Assembly (NCBI GenBank): GCA_018466975.1
Contig: CM031558.1
Coordinates: forward strand, 3,038,001 to 3,102,000
Origin: Sparassis latifolia
Taxonomy: Eukaryota > Basidiomycota > Agaricomycetes > Polyporales > Sparassidaceae
Reading direction: 5' to 3'
DNA length: 64,000 nucleotides
Part shown: one piece after another, positions 50,738 through 61,237 of the stretch
Layout of the letters: every line of letters begins with the position of its first letter
Numbering within the stretch: position 1 is the first letter of the stretch
Position numbers and translations under genes: made by a program
The notes under the pieces: generated by a model
Database searches by the model: none
What the model was told of the DNA's origin: nothing
The model's input: the letters and a program-made list of their open reading frames with translations, nothing else

Positions 50738-51342
50738 AGCTTTGGGACGCCGAACGCCGCAATTGGTGCCATTCTGTTTTGAATGACACTGAGAGGGCGA
50801 AGAAACTTTCAGTTTTTCTTGGTGCTGGTCCGGCTGGACGTGACTTAGGAAGGCGACGGCTGTGGTACTGGAGAGCGACCAGGAAGGTGCCGAATCTGGG
50901 TTGACTTCGAAGCTAACTGGACCTAGGCGGGTGCAGTAGGGTGCTTCATATCCTTTGATATCCATCTATATATAACTACTCATATTTATGTGACCGCTAT
51001 TTTCTCACCTGCTTATGTTTGATTCTGGCGCTCTGTCCACTGGGGCCTAACGCGCGACGCGACGGTGACAGATAACGCTCACGTGGAACCGTAACACCGC
51101 GCAAATCTCACCCACTCTATCTTACCCAGTCTTCCTCAGGCGAACGTCGCATCGTCATGACTGGTCATCGCTTCATCCGCAGTTCGATCCTGAACAGACG
51201 ATGCTCCCGCCGACTGCCAGTACTTGCCCATGAGATTGGTAGTGTGCAGTAGAGTCAAGGACGCCATTGGGTCTAGTACTACGGCAGACTGTTATGCACG
51301 TCGCGAAACGTACGTATTATCTGCAAACTCCACACTGTACTA

Positions 51343-51380
51343 GTCTGCTTTCTGACGCGGGGGGTTAGTCGAGAGGTCGG
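51343..51380 (+). repeat. Left terminal inverted repeat of the two-gene element
   Basis: GTCTGCTTTC at 51343-51352, a G-run at 51359-51364 and AGAGGTCGG at 51372-51380. All are mirrored in the right end. Confidence 0.5.
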
Positions 51381-52841
51381 ACAATTTAGACGGAGCTGGA
51401 AAGTACAGTAATGTTGGCTACAGCGGAAGCTCAAGTATTGTAGAGTCACGTTACTGCTTTCTCGGACGCGGAGGCGGCTAAGTGTCTCTGCTAAGTGTCT
51501 CTGGCACGAAGCTCTCCATGGCAGGGCCATCGAAGCCAGCAACGGTCTCGCCAGCTGTTTCTTTCGATAAAACCCAGATCGCACATCTTGAGGCCATATT
51601 AAAGCTCATCCAGCAGCGTCGATGGACCCTCGGTTCCTTCCTCCAGGCTGTCTTCACGGAACCCGCAGCCGGCGACAAGAATATATCGCAAGTTCGTTTA
51701 CAGATGGTGGCTCATTTTCTCTCGGATCGTTCCACCATTCAAGCTCAAGATATTGCCGAGCTGATGTACTCAAGCAAACACAGCGCTCTAACCAGATCAC
51801 GTACGGCATCAATGCTTCCTGCAAACATCGTGGAGGGCTCCAAGCAGGCCAAGATGGCACGCAGTCGTTTGCAAGAATGGGCTATCCAAAAAGTGGAGGC
51901 TGTAGTCAATTTGGAGGCCGAAGAAGTGTCTGGTAAAGGCAGTGGATTTCACCTGAAAAATTCGAATGCGACTTGGGACTTTGTCCTTAACTTTTCCCTG
52001 AAAAATATATTACTCCTTGTTGAAAAGAGGGGCCCGACCATCCTACGCTTACTCGTAGCGTGCGCTATGCCTCCTGGAAGACGACCCGCATGACAACCAC
52101 AACCAGTCGCACTGGCTGCACATGGTGCAAGCACTGCGACTGCTGTCGTTCCCATGAATGCTGCCACAGCTGCTTCCACCGATGGTCGCGCAACTACCAC
52201 CACCCCCGCAAGCACTACTAGCAGTGCAAGTGCCACGACGATCATGAATACTACTGCCATTGAGACAATCCCTCCTGCAACAATGGTGATACCAACCAGT
52301 GCGAGCATAGCTCAGCCTGCCATGTCCTATGCTGCGTATCTCACAAAGGATGCCCTGCACGGGATCGGTAAGAATCGCCGAGACCCTTTCGTGGTATGTA
52401 CTGTGAAGACTCTCTGTGTGTTACTGGGCATTTAATATCTAAGCTCTCTAGATTGTCCTGGTCACTCTCGTCCTCCTGATGAGTGCCCGAAATCTTCACT
52501 TTTCAGCTTTTCGGAAAGTCGTTGGTGTATGGCTCTTCGCACACACCTCACAACATGGAGTATATGCTATTCTCACTCGCTTCGGCTTCACGGTCTCGTA
52601 CACATCTGTCCTCAAGCTGTTGCGCAGTCTCTCGCAGTCTGCCAAGAGCCTCATTCAGCAGAAGGCAAAGTCTCGTGCATTCTTGCTGATATATGACAAC
52701 ATCAACCAAATGTCACGAGCGTGGGATCCGGACTTAGGCCAGAAGGATACAATCCACAATGGCACGGCGGCGACATTCGTGGAACTAGATGACTGTGACG
52801 TGACCAAAGCTTTTGACATCAACCGCCTTCACCATGCACAT

Positions 52842-54745
52842 CAGGGAAAACCTCCCACGCAAATTGGTCAAAATTATATGTTAATTGTCAAGAATAGTCG
52901 AGATTCTACGTGTTCCAGCGATTATCAAGATTGTTGAGAATTACATGAAATAGACGGCCCCTGCCGATTTCACTTATTAATTCTCAACATTTCTTAACAT
53001 TACACACATTTGTTACAGGGTTTTCTCTTCAATTCTTGCTATTATACATGTTGTGACAACGAATCAGGCCTCATTTACTCAATAATACAGTAGGAAAATG
53101 AGCATGTTATTAGACAGTACAAAGTATAATACTTAAAGAGATATGTTAGTCATCGAAAGGGCACTTGCATACCGCCTGGGCAAATAAGGGAGAAAAATCG
53201 CCAGCATACCATCCCGTATCCTAAGAGGCCGTGAGGGTTTCGCAGTCACGTTCACAAAGACACGGTCGTTGGAGGTGCCCCCTCCGATCGTACCAGCGGG
53301 CGCATGCGGGGAAAGCTCGAACCTCTCGACATAATAGCTCGGCAAAATCGCAGCCGCGACCTCCTGAGCCAGCCGCCTTCTCCGTGCATCATCTGTACCG
53401 GCAGAGACGAGATCATTGGAATTGCCGTACTCTTTTGGCAGTGCACGATCTGATGGACCAGGAGGGGAGCCAGGGGGCGGGTGTGCGTAGTCATAGTCAA
53501 CGGCTTCGAGGTCATATATTCCTGGTGTGGATTGTTCGTGCGCAGATGACGGCTCGGGGTCATTGTACGCAAGGGGGTGGTAACCGCTGCGGGGGTTTAT
53601 GGGGTGGTGCGGGTCGACTCCAGCGTCCGACTAAATTTGATGTGTTGAGGGGGGCCGGAGTCGGAGCATCCATAGATGCCCTGCATTTTCATTTTACTAG
53701 TAACCGAGTTAGTCTTTCAGCGAGGCACATAGAACGTAGTGACGCACCTCGAGTGTTGCCCTTGTGCTACTACACAATACTATGCCTAGCATTGCGTGCC
53801 AATATCAGCTTTGTTAAATGCATCCGTGAGGGTGACAGAGAAAGCACGCACCATAGAATAAGTGTTGCGGGTCAACAAAGACGTGAATATGAAGCAGAGA
53901 AGACGGACGCTGCAGTGAACCAGTGCTTGCTCTTGTTTGGTCCAATCAACGTCATCACGTGCCGTTGGACTTAGCAATTCCTGGGCGATGACTTCAACTC
54001 ACCCTTGCAAGTTGCATCGTCACTGGTTGATCACCTATACCCCATATCCCGCACTTATCTCGCAGCTCATATCTCCTGCCTTGCCTGGCATCTCCCCACC
54101 TTACCTGCCTCGCTGACTGCATCTGTCCAGCCTCCACATGTCATCTCGCCCTTGCATCTTGCCTCCTCCACCTCTCTCGCCTCACGTCTTTGTACACCTT
54201 GCATCTGCTGTCCCGCATTCTCGCCTGCCTCGCGTTCTTACCCATGCTGCTCAGTTGGACACATCGGCAACATCTAATACACCATTCGGATCGCTCGAAC
54301 CGGCTGCTGCATTTACAGCCATCTTTGCTGAGTGTCGAGCCGGTGCTGTTTCTGCTTTTGCTGTGTGATCATGGTAAGCACTGGTTCAGCTGATGACTCT
54401 CTTCAAGAGTGTTCTGGAGGAACTGTTTTCCAAGATCCCAGTAGAGTTTCTGATTAGCGTACAATTTACATGTAATTATGAGATTTTCAAATCAGATTAT
54501 CATTGAAGTCGAGATATTGAGTGACTTTCCTCAGTGCACGATGCACTTCAAATTTTCTCGTTCTTGTGAATTATCCACAATTATCATACATTTCTTCACA
54601 ATTGTGCTGGGTGGTTTTTCCTGATGTCATTGAAGTTGAGAAATTAAGTGACTTTCCTCACAATGCACTCCAAATTTTTTCATTCTCATGAATTATCCAC
54701 AATTATCATATAATTCTTCGCAATTGCGCTGGGAGGTTTTTCCTG
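52842..54745. mobile_element. hAT-like non-autonomous element (1904 bp) inside DUF6589 exon 2
   Basis: The left end CAGGGAAAACCTCCCA and the reverse complement of the right end CAGGAAAAACCTCCCA continue as imperfect inverted repeats for about 50 bp (both include TTATATG.TAATTGT). The flanks are ATGCACAT (52834-52841) and ATGCACAG (54746-54753), an 8-bp duplication with one mismatch. Both the CAGGG terminus and the 8-bp duplication are hAT hallmarks. Joining the host across it gives RLHHA directly into QQAERRKDLNLETLY in frame. No transposase is present. About 120 bp at the right end is tandemly duplicated (54500-54626 and 54627-54745). Confidence 0.75.
53150..53630 (-). pseudogene. Captured fragment of a bsd2/Ndfip-like gene inside the hAT-like element
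   Basis: The minus-strand frame starts at an acceptor-like TTTAG and runs DAGVDPHHPINPRSGYHPLAYND, then GIYDLEAVDYDYAHPPPGSPP, LPKEYGNSNDLV, ILPSYYVERFEL and GGGTSNDRVFVNVTAKPSRP, ending shortly after RIRDG. This order of motifs is what I know from the N-terminal cytosolic part of basidiomycete metal-homeostasis protein bsd2, an adaptor that targets metal transporters for ubiquitination. The PPxY and transmembrane regions of bsd2 are missing. It is a partial capture, antisense to the host gene. The assignment is from memory of the family. Confidence 0.6.
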
Positions 54746-56684
54746 ATGCACAGCAAGCGGAGCGCAGGAAGGATCTCAACCTCGAGACGCTGTATAAGCG
54801 GGTCGACTGGGAAAGGTTGAATGCTACCATCACTACTCACGTACTGAGCTTTCTAGTCGAAGCGGTGCCGGCATTGGCGGTACATCACGAGATGGTCCAG
54901 TTGCGGCTGAAAACAACACTGATGGTTCATCGTATGCGCACGGGACGTCAGACAGGAGTCCACCCACTCGCGACATCCAATCACAATGAGGGGAACACTG
55001 CTGAGAATGCAAAGGTATTGGAGGATCTTCTGGTGGACCAACTCCAGATGTCCAAAGAGGAAGTAGAGAAGGGGCTAATTCTTGTTGGCGGTGATCAGTC
55101 TACTGTCGAGAAGTTGCGCACGTTGAAGAAATATGTTGCAACTTGCCCGCATGGTTACTCCCGATATGGCTGGGTTCTGCCCCTCATCCAGCTTTGGCAC
55201 ATGGGTTGGGCGGACCTGGAATGCATTTTGAGTACGCACTGGGGGACCTCAACTGCGGATGATCTCTCATCGTTCCGCGCGGCAAATGTCTTGTTGGGGC
55301 GCAAGGTGAAGGACCGAAAACGGCCTGATTACTATCCGACACAGCACCTGGTTTTCGACATGCTGAAAGCAGAAATACTGGACTGTTGGAGGTACACCGG
55401 GCAGCATACATCCAAGAAAGTGGCTGACAGACAATTTCAGAATCCATCTCAAGGCTGAGAACCTCAAGGAGTATTTTTGTTCACATTACGTGGCGTACGA
55501 GCAGTTGCTCAAGTTGGCGGGTGAGATCTGTGATCATTATTTGACTGCAGATGCATACGACCGTGCGCTCAACCCTGTGGGAGGTCAGCCTCAAGCATTT
55601 TTTGGAAATGGTACACCATGGACAAGGGATGTGGCGGAAGGTACAGAGATAGGTGCCGAGCCATTTCCCGGTGACCAAGTCTTGGCAAACACTATTCTGC
55701 GTATGCGGGATAGCATTATCCACTATGAGTTCCAATGTGCAATCGCAGATGGGGATATTGGACGGGCAATGAATGTGATGGCCGTGAGTGGCGGTCTTTA
55801 TCGGGCGCCTTGCATTCTTGTTGATCGTCGTGAAGATCTGGACCTTCACCTTTGCAGGATCCGGTCGAAGTAAATACGCTAACGAGCTACTTGAATTCAC
55901 TTGCCAATTTGAATTCGAATACTCAGAAGAACTGAAGACCGCAATCAAAAACAACTGGCTGTGCAATCTGTCTGGTATTGAGGGGTGTTGGTTCCCTATG
56001 GACCTCTTACAGGAGAAAAATATTAAACAGCTGAAGAAAATGTCACAGCGCAAGGATAATCCTTTCGGGGGAGAATTTTTCAAGAACATCGTCGCTATGA
56101 ACATCCGTGCTTTCCTTCAGGCTATCGTGTCAATGCGAGACACTGTCCGGCTACTACGCAAGGGGAGTTCCCACCGACGGTCAGCCAAGCAAGCGAGCAT
56201 GAATGAGCTCATGCGCAATATGATAGAACAAGAACTTCACTGCTTTCGTGCAGGCCGCACGGCTGCACACCCGGCGAAGGATGATTTTGCGACGGGCTAT
56301 GAGCGCTTGGCAGATGGGAAGCGAATAAAGGACTTTATCACAAGAACACTGCGGGACGCAGGAGCCATTCATGAAGACGAGGAGCTCACCACAGATCAGA
56401 CTGTTGAAGGCATTGGCCCAGATGTCATGCGTGATGCGTCGGACGCACCGCTTCCGAATATTCTCTTCAATGGACAGTTGCTCGAGGGCGGTTCAGACAG
56501 CGTAGATGAAGATGGCATTCTGTCAGTATTAGATGACAGTGACGTGAGCACGTCAGACTCCGAGTCAGAGGGGGGGGAGTGACGACTGCAAGGAGCTGTG
56601 AGTATTTTATTAGGCACTCGTACGTTTACGGGTGCATAGCTGACAGCCGAGTAGAACGTCACAGAAAAGCGGCTGGGGACGGGG

Positions 56685-59600
56685 CTAAATTCTCCTTTTG
56701 ACAGGCTGTTGTTGTAGTACTTTTGCTTGTGCTCTATCATCGACTATGTCAACTTCTGCAAATGGACATCCAGAATGCCAGATGCGACGGGTACTCACCG
56801 TTGCCTTGGTTCCAATTCGAGATCTTTTCTTCTCCGGTGCGTCTGTGCTTTCAGATGTCGAGGCGCGACGTTTTCCAAGTGAAGAAGCTCCTCCTGAGAT
56901 ATTATAGAACTGCGCCGATGGCACAGGTGCAAGGAGCCCAGCGCGCACCGGAGGCTGAGGTCCCGGCCGTGGCGGAGTGCTCGATTCCACGGCTTGAGGT
57001 GCCACCATGGAGCACACACTTGGTATTTTGACTTTCAGCATGACCCGTTTGATGCTGTTCAGTCCCACAGCCGCCAGTTCTGCTCGAACTTCCTCCTCGC
57101 GCTTCTTCTGTCTGTTAGCTCGCTGTTTTCCCAACATTTCCTCGTGGCGCACCCTGAGGAGCTCACGCATCTCATCAGCAATCTTCTTCACAGCATCCCA
57201 CAGTGCAGCCCCGGAGTCCTCCCAATACCGCCACCCGCTCAAGCACGATGCAAGAACTGATCTAGAGTCCACGAGATGGAAATCACGTGTAATCTTCTTC
57301 ACGTACGTCTCGTCAAGGAAGCATTGTGGGCTGATGAACAGCCTATCTAGCTTTGAGGAGCCGCTCCTGTGAAGGTCGCGAGCAGCTGCGCAGAGCCTCG
57401 CCGCAACGTGATTGATATCCTTCGTGTTAAGCTTCATGTATGCGGGAACTTTGGGCGCATCGGGATCACCCTGAATTTCTGGTGAGTTCTCAGATGCTTC
57501 CTCTCCATTGTTCTCGCTCGGTAGAACTCGAGGTGTGGGAACTGGGCGAGGAAGACAGGAGCTGCATCGCCCGCAGTCTCGAGACACGCCAGGGTTTCCA
57601 TAAATGAAGTTGATTTGTCGTGTGATGCAGTACCCTCGAGCGTGCGCGGCAACAATCAGAAGCCGCGCGTGCAGATTCGTTTACCAGGGCCGGGAATACT
57701 TTTGCGTGAGCTCACCGCTGTCTTCATGATATGCGGCTCCTTCGGAAGAGAGTTTGTCTTCGTAGCGGTGACTACACTGGCAGTAGTCTGTACAGTGGTT
57801 GCATCGTCGCTCAATCCTGACCACCTGACAGTGAGTACAAACGTCCAGCCTAGGTAGTCAAGGCACAGACCTTCTCCATCATCATTCCCATTTTCTGACG
57901 GACCAGGCATCGCAAGCTCATCAGTACAGACGGCATCACCTTCACTCCTTCTCTCCGCAGCACCAGCTTCTACGTCTGAGGCTGTACGATCGTCTTCTCC
58001 AATATGGGCATTGCTATCGCGTGCTGTTAACAGTCGTTCATCTACGGGTTCTGACTGCACATAGGTAATGGCGGCATCGATATCGGATTTCTTCACATAG
58101 AAGATCGCCTCTCCAGTGGTGTTTGGTTCTCGTGCAGGCCGGTCGCCCTCTTGAATCCATGATGATGCACTCTTACTTCCCCCATAGCTAATGACACGGT
58201 GAAGTCCTGGGATATTCACGCCCACTTCGAGAACAGCCGTTGCCACGAATATAGCACTCTGCCGTTCATCTCCTGCCTCGTACAGGGCTGCAAAACCCTC
58301 GTGTTTGCATTCCGGGCAGTTGATAGAGTGCATATGGCGGATAAGGATGTGTCCCAGGCTCTTCAGCATTGGAGGAAGGAGACTTCGAAGGTAATGTGCA
58401 ACGCGATGGCCGAGTTCGATGGTGTCACAGTAGAGGACCACCTTATCAACATCGGAAGCTTTTGTCATCGTTTCGGGGATGAGCCAATCTAGATCTCGAA
58501 ATTCGTGGCCGGTAGAGGGATACTGCATTGTTCGGAAGATGAAATCAACATTGTGGCGCTCACAATCACGTCTGTCGAAGAGATAATGGTCTTTGCGGAA
58601 ACCGAGACAATGCAGTATATTCGTCGTCTGGGGCCCTGGTTCGACACTGGCAGACAAGGTGTTAGGGCTGGTGGTTTCCCAATCAGGAAACATATATTAG
58701 TCAGCACATAGGTATGTCGGAGAACATACTGGAATCTCCTAGAATTAATGTGTAGTATAAATATATGGCCCCAACCGCATGAGCCCCTCATGCGCTTGTG
58801 ACCCATGGCCTAACAGCCGAGTGAGTAGTAGTGATCAACCTCACAATACAAGCGCATACCTACTATTCACGCCGCGGGGGATAGTTTGTATACGGCCCGA
58901 TCTGGTAACAGAGTGTACCGCAAAAGGTCGCCGAGGCCGTAGGCGCGTAGGAGACTGTACCGTGATACGGGTAGGACCCCGCGAGCAGGTCAAGTCGAAA
59001 GTCTTCGCAACTAGGCAGGGTCGCCACTGCCGGAGTTGGTGAAGCATGGCGGCAGGGTATACTGGCATTTAGCATATGTGCAGAGAACCCTTGGAGCCAG
59101 GTGCAACTGAAGACAGTGTGCAAATGGCAAGCCGAACGTTACGCGTGTGTCGCGGACGAGGGACAGAGTTCCCGAATTGGAAGGATCCGTGGGAATACTG
59201 GAGCATCGGCTCTGTTGTCGTGGTCGAAGGATCTGGCGAGATGGTAGCATTGGCTCTCTTGTCACGAGCATAGGGCTCCCACAACATTTGGGATATTCAG
59301 GGTCAAAAGGAAAAATATATTGGATGGCATAGGAGATGCCAGGATTGAGGGGGGAGCACAGTAAGGTGTTTCCAGATTGAGGGGGAGTGTTAGGGCTGGT
59401 GGTTTCCCAATCAGGAAACATATATTAGTCAGCACATAGGTATGTCGGAGAACATACTGGAATCTCCTAGAATTAATGTGTAGTATAAATATATGGCCCC
59501 AACCGCATGAGCCCCTCATGCGCTTGTGACCCATGGCCTAACAGCCGAGTGAGTAGTAGTGATCAACCTCACAATACAAGGCAACAAATACGAGGTGCGA

Positions 59601-60234
59601 TGGACCACGCGAGCGCAATGACCAAATGTCCAAGTATGCTGTTCGGAAGTCGGCACCCCATTCATCCACTATATGTGCCTCGTCGGTCACCAGTACCCTC
59701 CACTGTGCACGAAATTGGTGATTCTGGATGAGCCTGCTAAATTCAGCTGTCCTCAGAGTCTCCGGCGAGAATGTAAGGATCTGCCAGCGGCACTCGCGCG
59801 CCTCCTTCCACAGGTCTCGTCCGGCTTTGCGAGCTTCGGCTAGACTCTCCGCATTGATAACTGTTGCTTGCAGTCCTTTCGCAAGAAGACTGGAAACCTG
59901 TAAAAGTAATCAACCACATGTTTGACTTCAAAGTGGGCTGCACTTGTACCAAATCACTCGCCAGAAAATTTGTTGGCTGAATCACCACAACAATAATGTC
60001 TCGTTGCGCCAATGCTGGTATGTAGATGAGTGCTGACTTTCCATCGCCAGTAGCCGTGATACAAAAGACGTCGCGACCATTAAGGATGCAGGCTGAGTCG
60101 TACAATTGAAAATTGCGTGGTTCATATTTTAGTAACGGTGAGACGAGCTTCTTCAATTTATCAAGACCTTCCTCGGAGGTCCAGTCATAAGGTATCCCAT
60201 TGGACCGGTCCAATGGGAGCGAAACAGCAGACAT
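56685..60234 (-). pseudogene. RecQ-type DEAH helicase gene, split by a TRIM-like insertion
   Basis: Exon 1 60234-59950 and exon 2 59897-59577 (intron GTACAA..TTACAG) lead to the insertion; coding resumes at 58654. Motifs: RNFQLYDSACILNGRD (Q/motif 0 region), ITATGDGKSAL (Walker A), VTDEAHIVDEWG (DEAH, motif II), FVAL joined to SASVEPGP (motif III region), IFVATAVLEVGVNIP (motifs IV-V). A degenerate motif VI, SWIQEGDRPAR, stands where RecQ has QxxGRAGR. Then come Cys-rich CTHCQVVRIERRCNHC and CGRCSSC segments and a long charged C-terminus. The frame changes near 57850 without a splice that fits phase, and a TAA (about 57688) interrupts the Cys-rich frame. Not functional as it stands. Confidence 0.7.
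58660..59576 (+). mobile_element. TRIM-like mini LTR element (917 bp) inside the helicase exon
   Basis: Two 189-bp direct repeats, 58660-58848 and 59388-59576, appear identical base for base. They start TGTTAGGGCTGG and end CTCACAATA. The element is flanked by an exact 5-bp duplication CAAGG (58655-58659 and 59577-59581). A purine run GAGGGGGAG directly precedes the second repeat, like a polypurine tract. The 539-bp interior has no gag or pol, hence miniature. Removing it and one CAAGG restores FVALSAS in the host frame. The repeat contains a TATA-like TATAAATATAT and a CGCATGA/TCATGCG inverted pair. The 3' repeat end is TA rather than the canonical CA, and no primer-binding site was recognised. 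Confidence 0.8.
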
Positions 60235-60411
60235 TCAGACTTAGATGTCAGAGAAATAAATAATACATGATGAGACGAGGTCGCTGGTCGAGAGTGGACA
60301 GCAGGGACGCGCTCTAACGATCGCGAGGCGCGTGTAAACAAGACGCGTTCGATAAGTTATGATCTGTTTGTACGTGCACATGACGTGCCGGCTCGGCAAT
60401 GTTCCGCGCGG

Positions 60412-60449
60412 CCGACCTCTTAGAAACACCCCCCTTAAGGAAAGCAGAC
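60412..60449 (-). repeat. Right terminal inverted repeat of the two-gene element
   Basis: Reads CCGACCTCT..GAAAGCAGAC on the plus strand, mirroring 51343-51380. Confidence 0.5.
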
Positions 60450-61237
60450 GTCAGATACGGATATCCTGAGACACGAAGGTTGAAGCAGAGTAGCTACACT
60501 GCCTTTGGGAGACTACACTGTACATGAAACTGATCCCACCATGCCCTGATATTCATCATAGGGCACACCAAATCCAACACAACTTCCACGAACTCCATCC
60601 AGTCCATCCTATACCAGCTACCAGCGACGTCTCCATCGATCATCCAAGCCTTCAATAGTTATTTCAAGCTTCTCTGCTAAACGTACCCTTCAGGTTGCGC
60701 AAGGTGGTGCTACTCAACTGTGGCCTACCGCGGTTTATTTCCGCTAATCGTCCTTAGTGTCTCTACTGGTCTACCTTCTCAATTTCTACACGCGCTATTT
60801 ATTATAACTTGTTTTGTCTTGTCGAGTCCAACCTCTATCAAGGACTTATGCGTCGGCAAACTGTTGAGTGACCTAGCTTCTCCGAGGGGACGTAGTGCGA
60901 GGTGGTCGGAATACCATGGCCCGGAGAAGAACTATTCTTTACCTCCCCGAAGACGTGTGGCCCGATATTGCTAAACAGAAGATATCTCCGCTACCAGAAC
61001 GGAAATTTCGAGAACAGTTAATCACGAAGAACCAGAAGATAGGTCGACATGGCGGATTGCGTGAAAAACAGTGTGGGGCATTGTGTTTGCGAGTGAGTTC
61101 GATCTTCGACGTTTTGTTACCCATCCGTCATCGTATATCTTCCGTTCTCGTGCTCTTTCGCCATGGCGACTGTTCCTTGCAGCGCCACGTGCTTGGACAA
61201 AGGTTGCAAACGCCACCTGGGGACGTGCTCGCTCGGA
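60450..61237. other. Intergenic, no supported gene
   Basis: A frame from ATG 60915 (MARRRTILYLPEDVW..) has no recognised family and no intron or promoter support. The rest is likely promoter DNA for the membrane protein gene downstream. Confidence 0.4.

Follow-up and report, generated by a model that had tools for sequence, protein, structure and literature searches.

The window, by which we mean the whole 64,000-nucleotide stretch of DNA analysed here, corresponds to C7:3038001-3102000 of a 41.4-Mb genome in 22 contigs and contains a DUF6589 gene and a RecQ-like helicase gene in convergent orientation. This arrangement had been proposed in an earlier note on the sequence and was corroborated by Pfam. 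Matches to PF20231 were obtained on the + strand at 54688-55458 (E 6e-58), 55490-55873 (8e-15), and 55788-56582 (3e-36), and the helicase frames of the - strand matched DEAD at 59743-60234 (E 2.6e-7) and Helicase_C at 57656-58693 (3.9e-7), with a C-terminal frame at 56685-57587. About 100 bp separate the stop of the DUF6589 frame (56582) from the end of the last helicase-side frame (56685), reproducing the gap described previously. Both genes are broken, in line with the earlier description of the copy as dead. The features of the locus are listed in Table 1.

Table 1. Features of the DUF6589/helicase locus, in window coordinates
Feature	Position	Strand	Remarks
Whole transposon copy	51341..60515	+	9175 nt including two nested insertions; common ends across copies, target site duplication (TSD), empty site
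Left TSD, CACTGTAC	51333..51340		Exact 8-bp match to right-hand copy
Right TSD, CACTGTAC	60516..60523		Exact 8-bp match to left-hand copy
Left terminal region, starts TAGTCTGC	51341..51403	+	Recurs at at least 41 places in the genome
Right subterminal inverted repeat (right end in the earlier note)	60412..60449	-	Kept in non-autonomous copies
True right terminal region, ends GGGAGACTA (TAGTCTCCC on - strand)	60450..60515	-	Alignment of copies
DUF6589 gene	51518..56582	+	ATG inferred; PF20231; predicted to encode a DDE transposase; disrupted by frame breaks and a nested insertion
RecQ-like helicase gene	56685..60234	-	Convergent with DUF6589; broken
Nested insertion in DUF6589 gene	~52844..54745		Inverted ends of ~51 nt; absent from C10:2337468 copy
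Nested insertion in helicase gene	~58660..59575		Short LTR-like element; absent from C10:2337468 copy

Comparison with a second copy (C10:2337468-2349664), which is 93-99% identical to the window copy in the pieces they have in common, revealed the two nested insertions, which had previously been overlooked. The insertion in the helicase gene has identical direct repeats of 194 nt at 58659-58852 and 59387-59580. The C10 copy carries two nested insertions of its own that are absent from the window copy. The closest relatives of the DUF6589 protein were P0001 (89% identity) and P0081 (98% over 21% of the query) of Sparassis crispa, which makes a Sparassis species the likely host.

Element boundaries, target duplications, and empty sites

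The two genes had been placed between 38-bp imperfect inverted ends. Both repeats exist (25 of 38 positions match) and are seen in other copies, but the right-hand repeat proved to be subterminal, lying 66 bp inside the true end. When the copies were aligned, similarity on the left began at TAGTCTGC (51341), outside of which the DNA is unrelated, and on the right it continued for 66 bp past the repeat and stopped at GGGAGACTA (60515). The earlier right end was accordingly rejected as the terminus; the terminal inverted repeat proper is short (TAGTCT), and the inner repeat is subterminal. Taken alone, the 38-bp inverted match is weakly above chance, 25/38 being the highest score of any ungapped 38-mer alignment of the outer flanks in all registers and being reached by three of 500 shuffles; the other copies confirm both repeats. 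A genome search with the first 301 bases located the left end at 39 or more places (among the best 40 of 44 candidates, one of which was an inner piece), mostly as matches spanning the first 57-63 bases, and two further left ends on C1 brought the count to that given in Table 1. The right-end query returned eight matches. Non-autonomous derivatives of 0.6-0.9 kb have the same ends as the full element.

The report that no target duplication was present did not hold, because the right "end" used in that comparison lay inside the true end; an exact 8-bp duplication flanks the corrected boundaries. We examined 32 of the at least 41 left-end copies, 31 of which start with TAGT. Of the 32, 21 were paired with a right end and flanked by an exact 8-bp TSD, representing 16 distinct events and 8-mers, and the remainder comprised two copies with 1-2 mismatches, eight without a partner in the examined DNA, and one without the TAGT start. 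Twenty of the 21 exact TSDs came from the scan of the 32 left ends, and the other was that of the C10 copy from a set of paired copies. This set was drawn from 19 listed end pairs, with C12:353073 omitted because its right side was unalignable, and 16 of the 18 counted pairs had an exact 8-bp TSD; C10:2901015 had two mismatches, and C14:470585 lacked the right motif. In the fuller left-end scan, C14:470585 did contain GGGAGATTA, with a TSD having one mismatch. When 12 events were considered with one representative each, an exact 8-bp match was obtained for 11 at the true junction and for none of 168 shifted offset pairs. The TSD of a DUF6589 relative at C8:387k is 9 bp long, which suggests that TSD size varies among DUF6589 elements. 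For a C4 relative in a trinucleotide-rich site, the 9-bp duplication seen at the ends is uncertain, and a clean TSD was not found for the C6, C10:3512k, C11, and C13 copies, which have common flanks.

For the empty-site analysis, copies with the same flanks were collapsed to one each, yielding 12 events (C14 and five later-seen events were left out), and the joined flanks were compared with the genome. Paralogous sequences spanning the junction were recovered for eight of the 12, including the window insertion, with identities of 81% to 100% and an indel-free junction in seven of the eight alignments; this genome search gave no empty site for C6:1069856, C8:2581823, C9:854691, or C9:2708350. 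The empty site of the window insertion lies around C7:2975512-2975672 and shows 100% identity across 200 nt and 99.7% when about 300 nt per side are compared, which is direct evidence that the element inserted and duplicated 8 bp of target.

Association of DUF6589 with a RecQ-like helicase

In this genome PF20231 matched 27 times, which by coordinates amounts to 15 loci. A convergent RecQ-like helicase adjoins 11 of the 15, three of them by weak matches (C10:4137k, C10:4539k, and C14:333k; E 7e-8 to 3e-6), and the helicase searches found none beside DUF6589 at C9:72k, C10:4154k, C1:893k, or C2:412k. The loci at C6:1441k, C10:3512k, C11:4412k, and C13:5k have common flanks and represent one insertion that was multiplied. 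Among other fungi, seven of 23 helicase homologues occur on contigs identical in length to that of a DUF6589 match (425539, 10568, 6379, 12672, 325940, 5456, and 9393 bases), and the DUF6589 and helicase locus tags are consecutive or near in Hermanssonia, Phanerochaete, and Athelia; from the lengths and the tags, we infer that the equal-size pairs share contigs. Protein distances within the seven pairs were correlated (r 0.82; 2 of 5040 permutations), a result that host relatedness alone would also give and for which four of the 14 proteins were fragments of 291-340 aa. A predicted protein of Actinomortierella (P0170) combines DUF6589, DEAD, and Helicase_C in a single chain, which could be a gene-model fusion.

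ATPase motif I was present in seven of the nine helicase homologues scanned, as was motif VI. Of the NCBIfam models, recQ_fam TIGR00614 scored best against the helicase frames at C8, C4, and C6 (E 8e-21, 2e-14, and 4e-20, respectively) and was also the sole model matched by the window helicase frame (E 0.003), in every case below the curated cut-off. We take TIGR00614 to be the same model as CDD:129701. On the basis of the linkage, the conserved ends, the target duplications, and the empty sites, we conclude that DUF6589 and the helicase form one mobile unit, as the earlier note had surmised. That note named unlinked genes, or a lack of common termini and empty sites, as observations that would contradict it; what we found was linkage, in this genome and in other fungi, together with common termini and empty sites in this genome.

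DUF6589 as a predicted transposase

AlphaFold models of two divergent DUF6589 proteins adopt an RNase H-like fold, and the best structural matches of these models were the DDE transposases Hermes, P element, Tn5, and RAG1. Hermes was the best match by VIA-align, and the second model had the P element as its top Foldseek match. The predicted models and residue conservation indicate a triad, D290/D452/E650 (P0004 numbering), that includes the aspartate of VGGDQS; the first Asp is predicted to lie on strand 1, the second after a later strand, and the Glu on a late helix preceded by an all-helical insertion. The results are consistent with DUF6589 being an RNase H-type DDE transposase, in line with the recombinase or transposase role suggested for it previously. 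A DUF6589 sequence profile gave no match to PDB chains. In a Pfam scan of four homologues to E 1, only DUF6589 was above the cut-off, with no hAT dimerisation, BED, or THAP domain and, among the models of that library, no match to a KDZ-type transposase. Homologues of DUF6589 numbered 168 (101 + 67), scored among candidates with common words, and the named matches among these candidates were restricted to species that we take to belong to Agaricomycetes and Mortierellomycotina. The viral contigs scanned with the A1 query contained no relative.

Relation to known transposons and competing explanations

We consider it highly likely that 51341-60515 is an inserted DNA transposon, with its 8-bp TSD and empty site, in which DUF6589 is the predicted DDE transposase and the convergent RecQ-family gene likely encodes a helicase that assists transposition. 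A DUF6589 transposase complex would bind the GTCTGCTTTC...AGAGGTCGG repeats, both terminal and subterminal, double-strand cuts would release the element, and the excised element would be joined to target DNA with an 8-bp stagger; the helicase, as the likely partner of this transposase, may open or unwind the ends or process the gap. The alternative of two unrelated host genes beside accidental inverted sequences has a vanishingly small probability. The 38-bp match alone is weak enough to allow it, given the shuffles that equalled it, but it is refuted by the empty sites, and the TSDs, the presence of the end at over 40 places, and the recurrent gene pair also speak against it. We likewise give little credence to the idea that the helicase was acquired a single time and has been kept as a passenger that plays no part in transposition. 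No helicase was detected at four of the 15 DUF6589 loci, and the non-autonomous copies consist of ends only, which informs the needs in cis and not in trans; against this, the linkage recurs in several species and the ATPase motifs are retained in most of the homologues scanned. That DUF6589 elements are a divergent hAT branch that gained a helicase also appears unlikely. The 8-bp TSD and the RNase H fold interrupted by a helical insertion resemble Hermes, but the Pfam scan of four homologues showed no hAT domain, the ends read TAGTC and the hAT consensus is YARNG, a helicase is present, and the models match P element, Tn5, and RAG1 as well. The P element differs in turn, since no THAP domain was seen in the four homologues scanned here and the DUF6589 element carries a helicase.

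Several described systems combine a transposon with a helicase. Helitrons make no TSD and encode an HUH nuclease with the helicase; they are ruled out by the 8-bp TSDs, and the RNase H-like model and the helicase frames matching RecQ-type models also differ. Kolobok elements have a TTAA TSD, and KolobokH is ruled out by the 16 different 8-mers found here. It is likewise a fungal DNA transposon carrying a RecQ helicase, but in KolobokH the transposase domain comes first and the helicase follows it downstream, whereas the genes are convergent here; in the red-algal Kolobok, RecQ is on the complementary strand (PMC9587614, in the parts available). A Dileera (KDZ) family generates 8-bp TSDs, according to the available text of PMC12730594. 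The claim that the architecture resembles no known family was not sustained, and a helicase-bearing architecture is already precedented. As far as the accessible portions of the sources go, the Academ copies of fungi contain DEAD PF00270 and recQ_fam (CDD:129701) domains and frequently pass for host genes in annotations (PMC6416283), the name AcademH has been given to a lineage in animals and fungi that encodes a helicase (Kojima 2020, as cited in PMC10045372), and putative non-autonomous Academ elements are widespread in the mushroom Marasmius oreades (PMC8290104).

AcademH is the best match as the nearest described system in working mode, on the analogy of a fungal DNA transposon with a helicase gene of the recQ_fam type. 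Probably the element is an ordinary AcademH member and DUF6589 is Pfam's name for the transposase of AcademH, an explanation that rivals ours on naming and not on mechanism. The fungal Academ helicase domains, the top rank of TIGR00614 for the helicase frames despite its scores below the cut-off, and the 9-bp duplication at C8:387k all favour it. So may the occurrence of AcademH in Basidiomycota, Ascomycota, and Mucoromycota, at low copy in the first and last (PMC10799480, in part), alongside the distribution of the named DUF6589 matches. The TSDs reported in the available part of PMC10045372 are 9 or 10 bp for AcademH (3 or 4 bp for AcademX) versus 8 bp in the family of the window element. 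We do not claim membership in AcademH because the TSDs of this family differ from that stated size and because AcademH was compared here by description and not by transposase sequence. The gene pair was not described under the name DUF6589 in the portions available of the literature on Academ, AcademH, basidiomycete helicase transposons, and Sparassis, including PMC10045372, PMC10799480, PMC12730594, PMC9587614, PMC9674265, PMC12210899, PMC6416283, and PMC8290104. It is conceivable, though rather doubtful, that DUF6589 with a convergent RecQ helicase, 8-bp TSDs, and ends that read TAGTCT and are accompanied by staggered subterminal repeats defines a separate eukaryotic DDE superfamily of Agaricomycetes and Mortierellomycotina, related to and distinct from AcademH.

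If there is such a superfamily, its members would be concealed by the labels "hypothetical protein" and "DNA 3'-5' helicase". The analysis offers a likely function, that of a DDE transposase, for a Pfam family of unknown function and explains the adjoining RecQ-like helicases. With the exact ends, TSDs, and non-autonomous derivatives known, helicase-assisted transposition becomes directly testable, and annotators could cease listing DUF6589-linked helicases as host helicases.

Insertions within the two long copies

The 194-nt repeat pair in the helicase gene of the window copy resembles a very short LTR element. Neither this element nor the 1.9-kb insertion of the DUF6589 gene is present in the second long copy, on contig C10, which holds two insertions of its own (1 kb and 4.8 kb), the larger having 239-nt direct repeats that are 97% alike. 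The palindrome of the helicase start region is present in the C10 copy too.

Features of the window transposon and related sequences (C, contig; k, kb position; TSD, target site duplication)
Feature	Location	Details
Second long transposon copy	G000:C10:2337468-2349664	TSD GTTGAAAC
Palindrome, 24 nt, perfect	window 60195-60218	helicase gene start region
Inverted repeats, 57 nt, 77%	window 52839-52895, 54692-54748	bound 1.9-kb nested insertion in DUF6589 gene
Direct repeats, 194 nt, identical	window 58659-58852, 59387-59580	flank 534 nt inside helicase gene
DUF6589-helicase relative	C8:382968-389811	ends TAGTCTCC/AAGACTA; 9-bp duplication GGTTGCCGC
Shortened DUF6589-helicase elements (4)	C6:1440-1444k, C10:3511-3515k, C11:4410-4414k, C13:3-7k	near-identical
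Related helicase frames L068-L072 (5)	C5:3958k, C7:1954k, C13:18k, C13:130k, C15:175k	238 aa

Relatives elsewhere in the genome

All four shortened elements have the same flanks, so it was as part of a larger repeat that they spread; the one on C13 lies within 8 kb of an end of that contig. None of the five related helicase frames is adjoined by a DUF6589 locus from the PF20231 profile search of the genome, and these frames possibly represent another helicase-carrying repeat.
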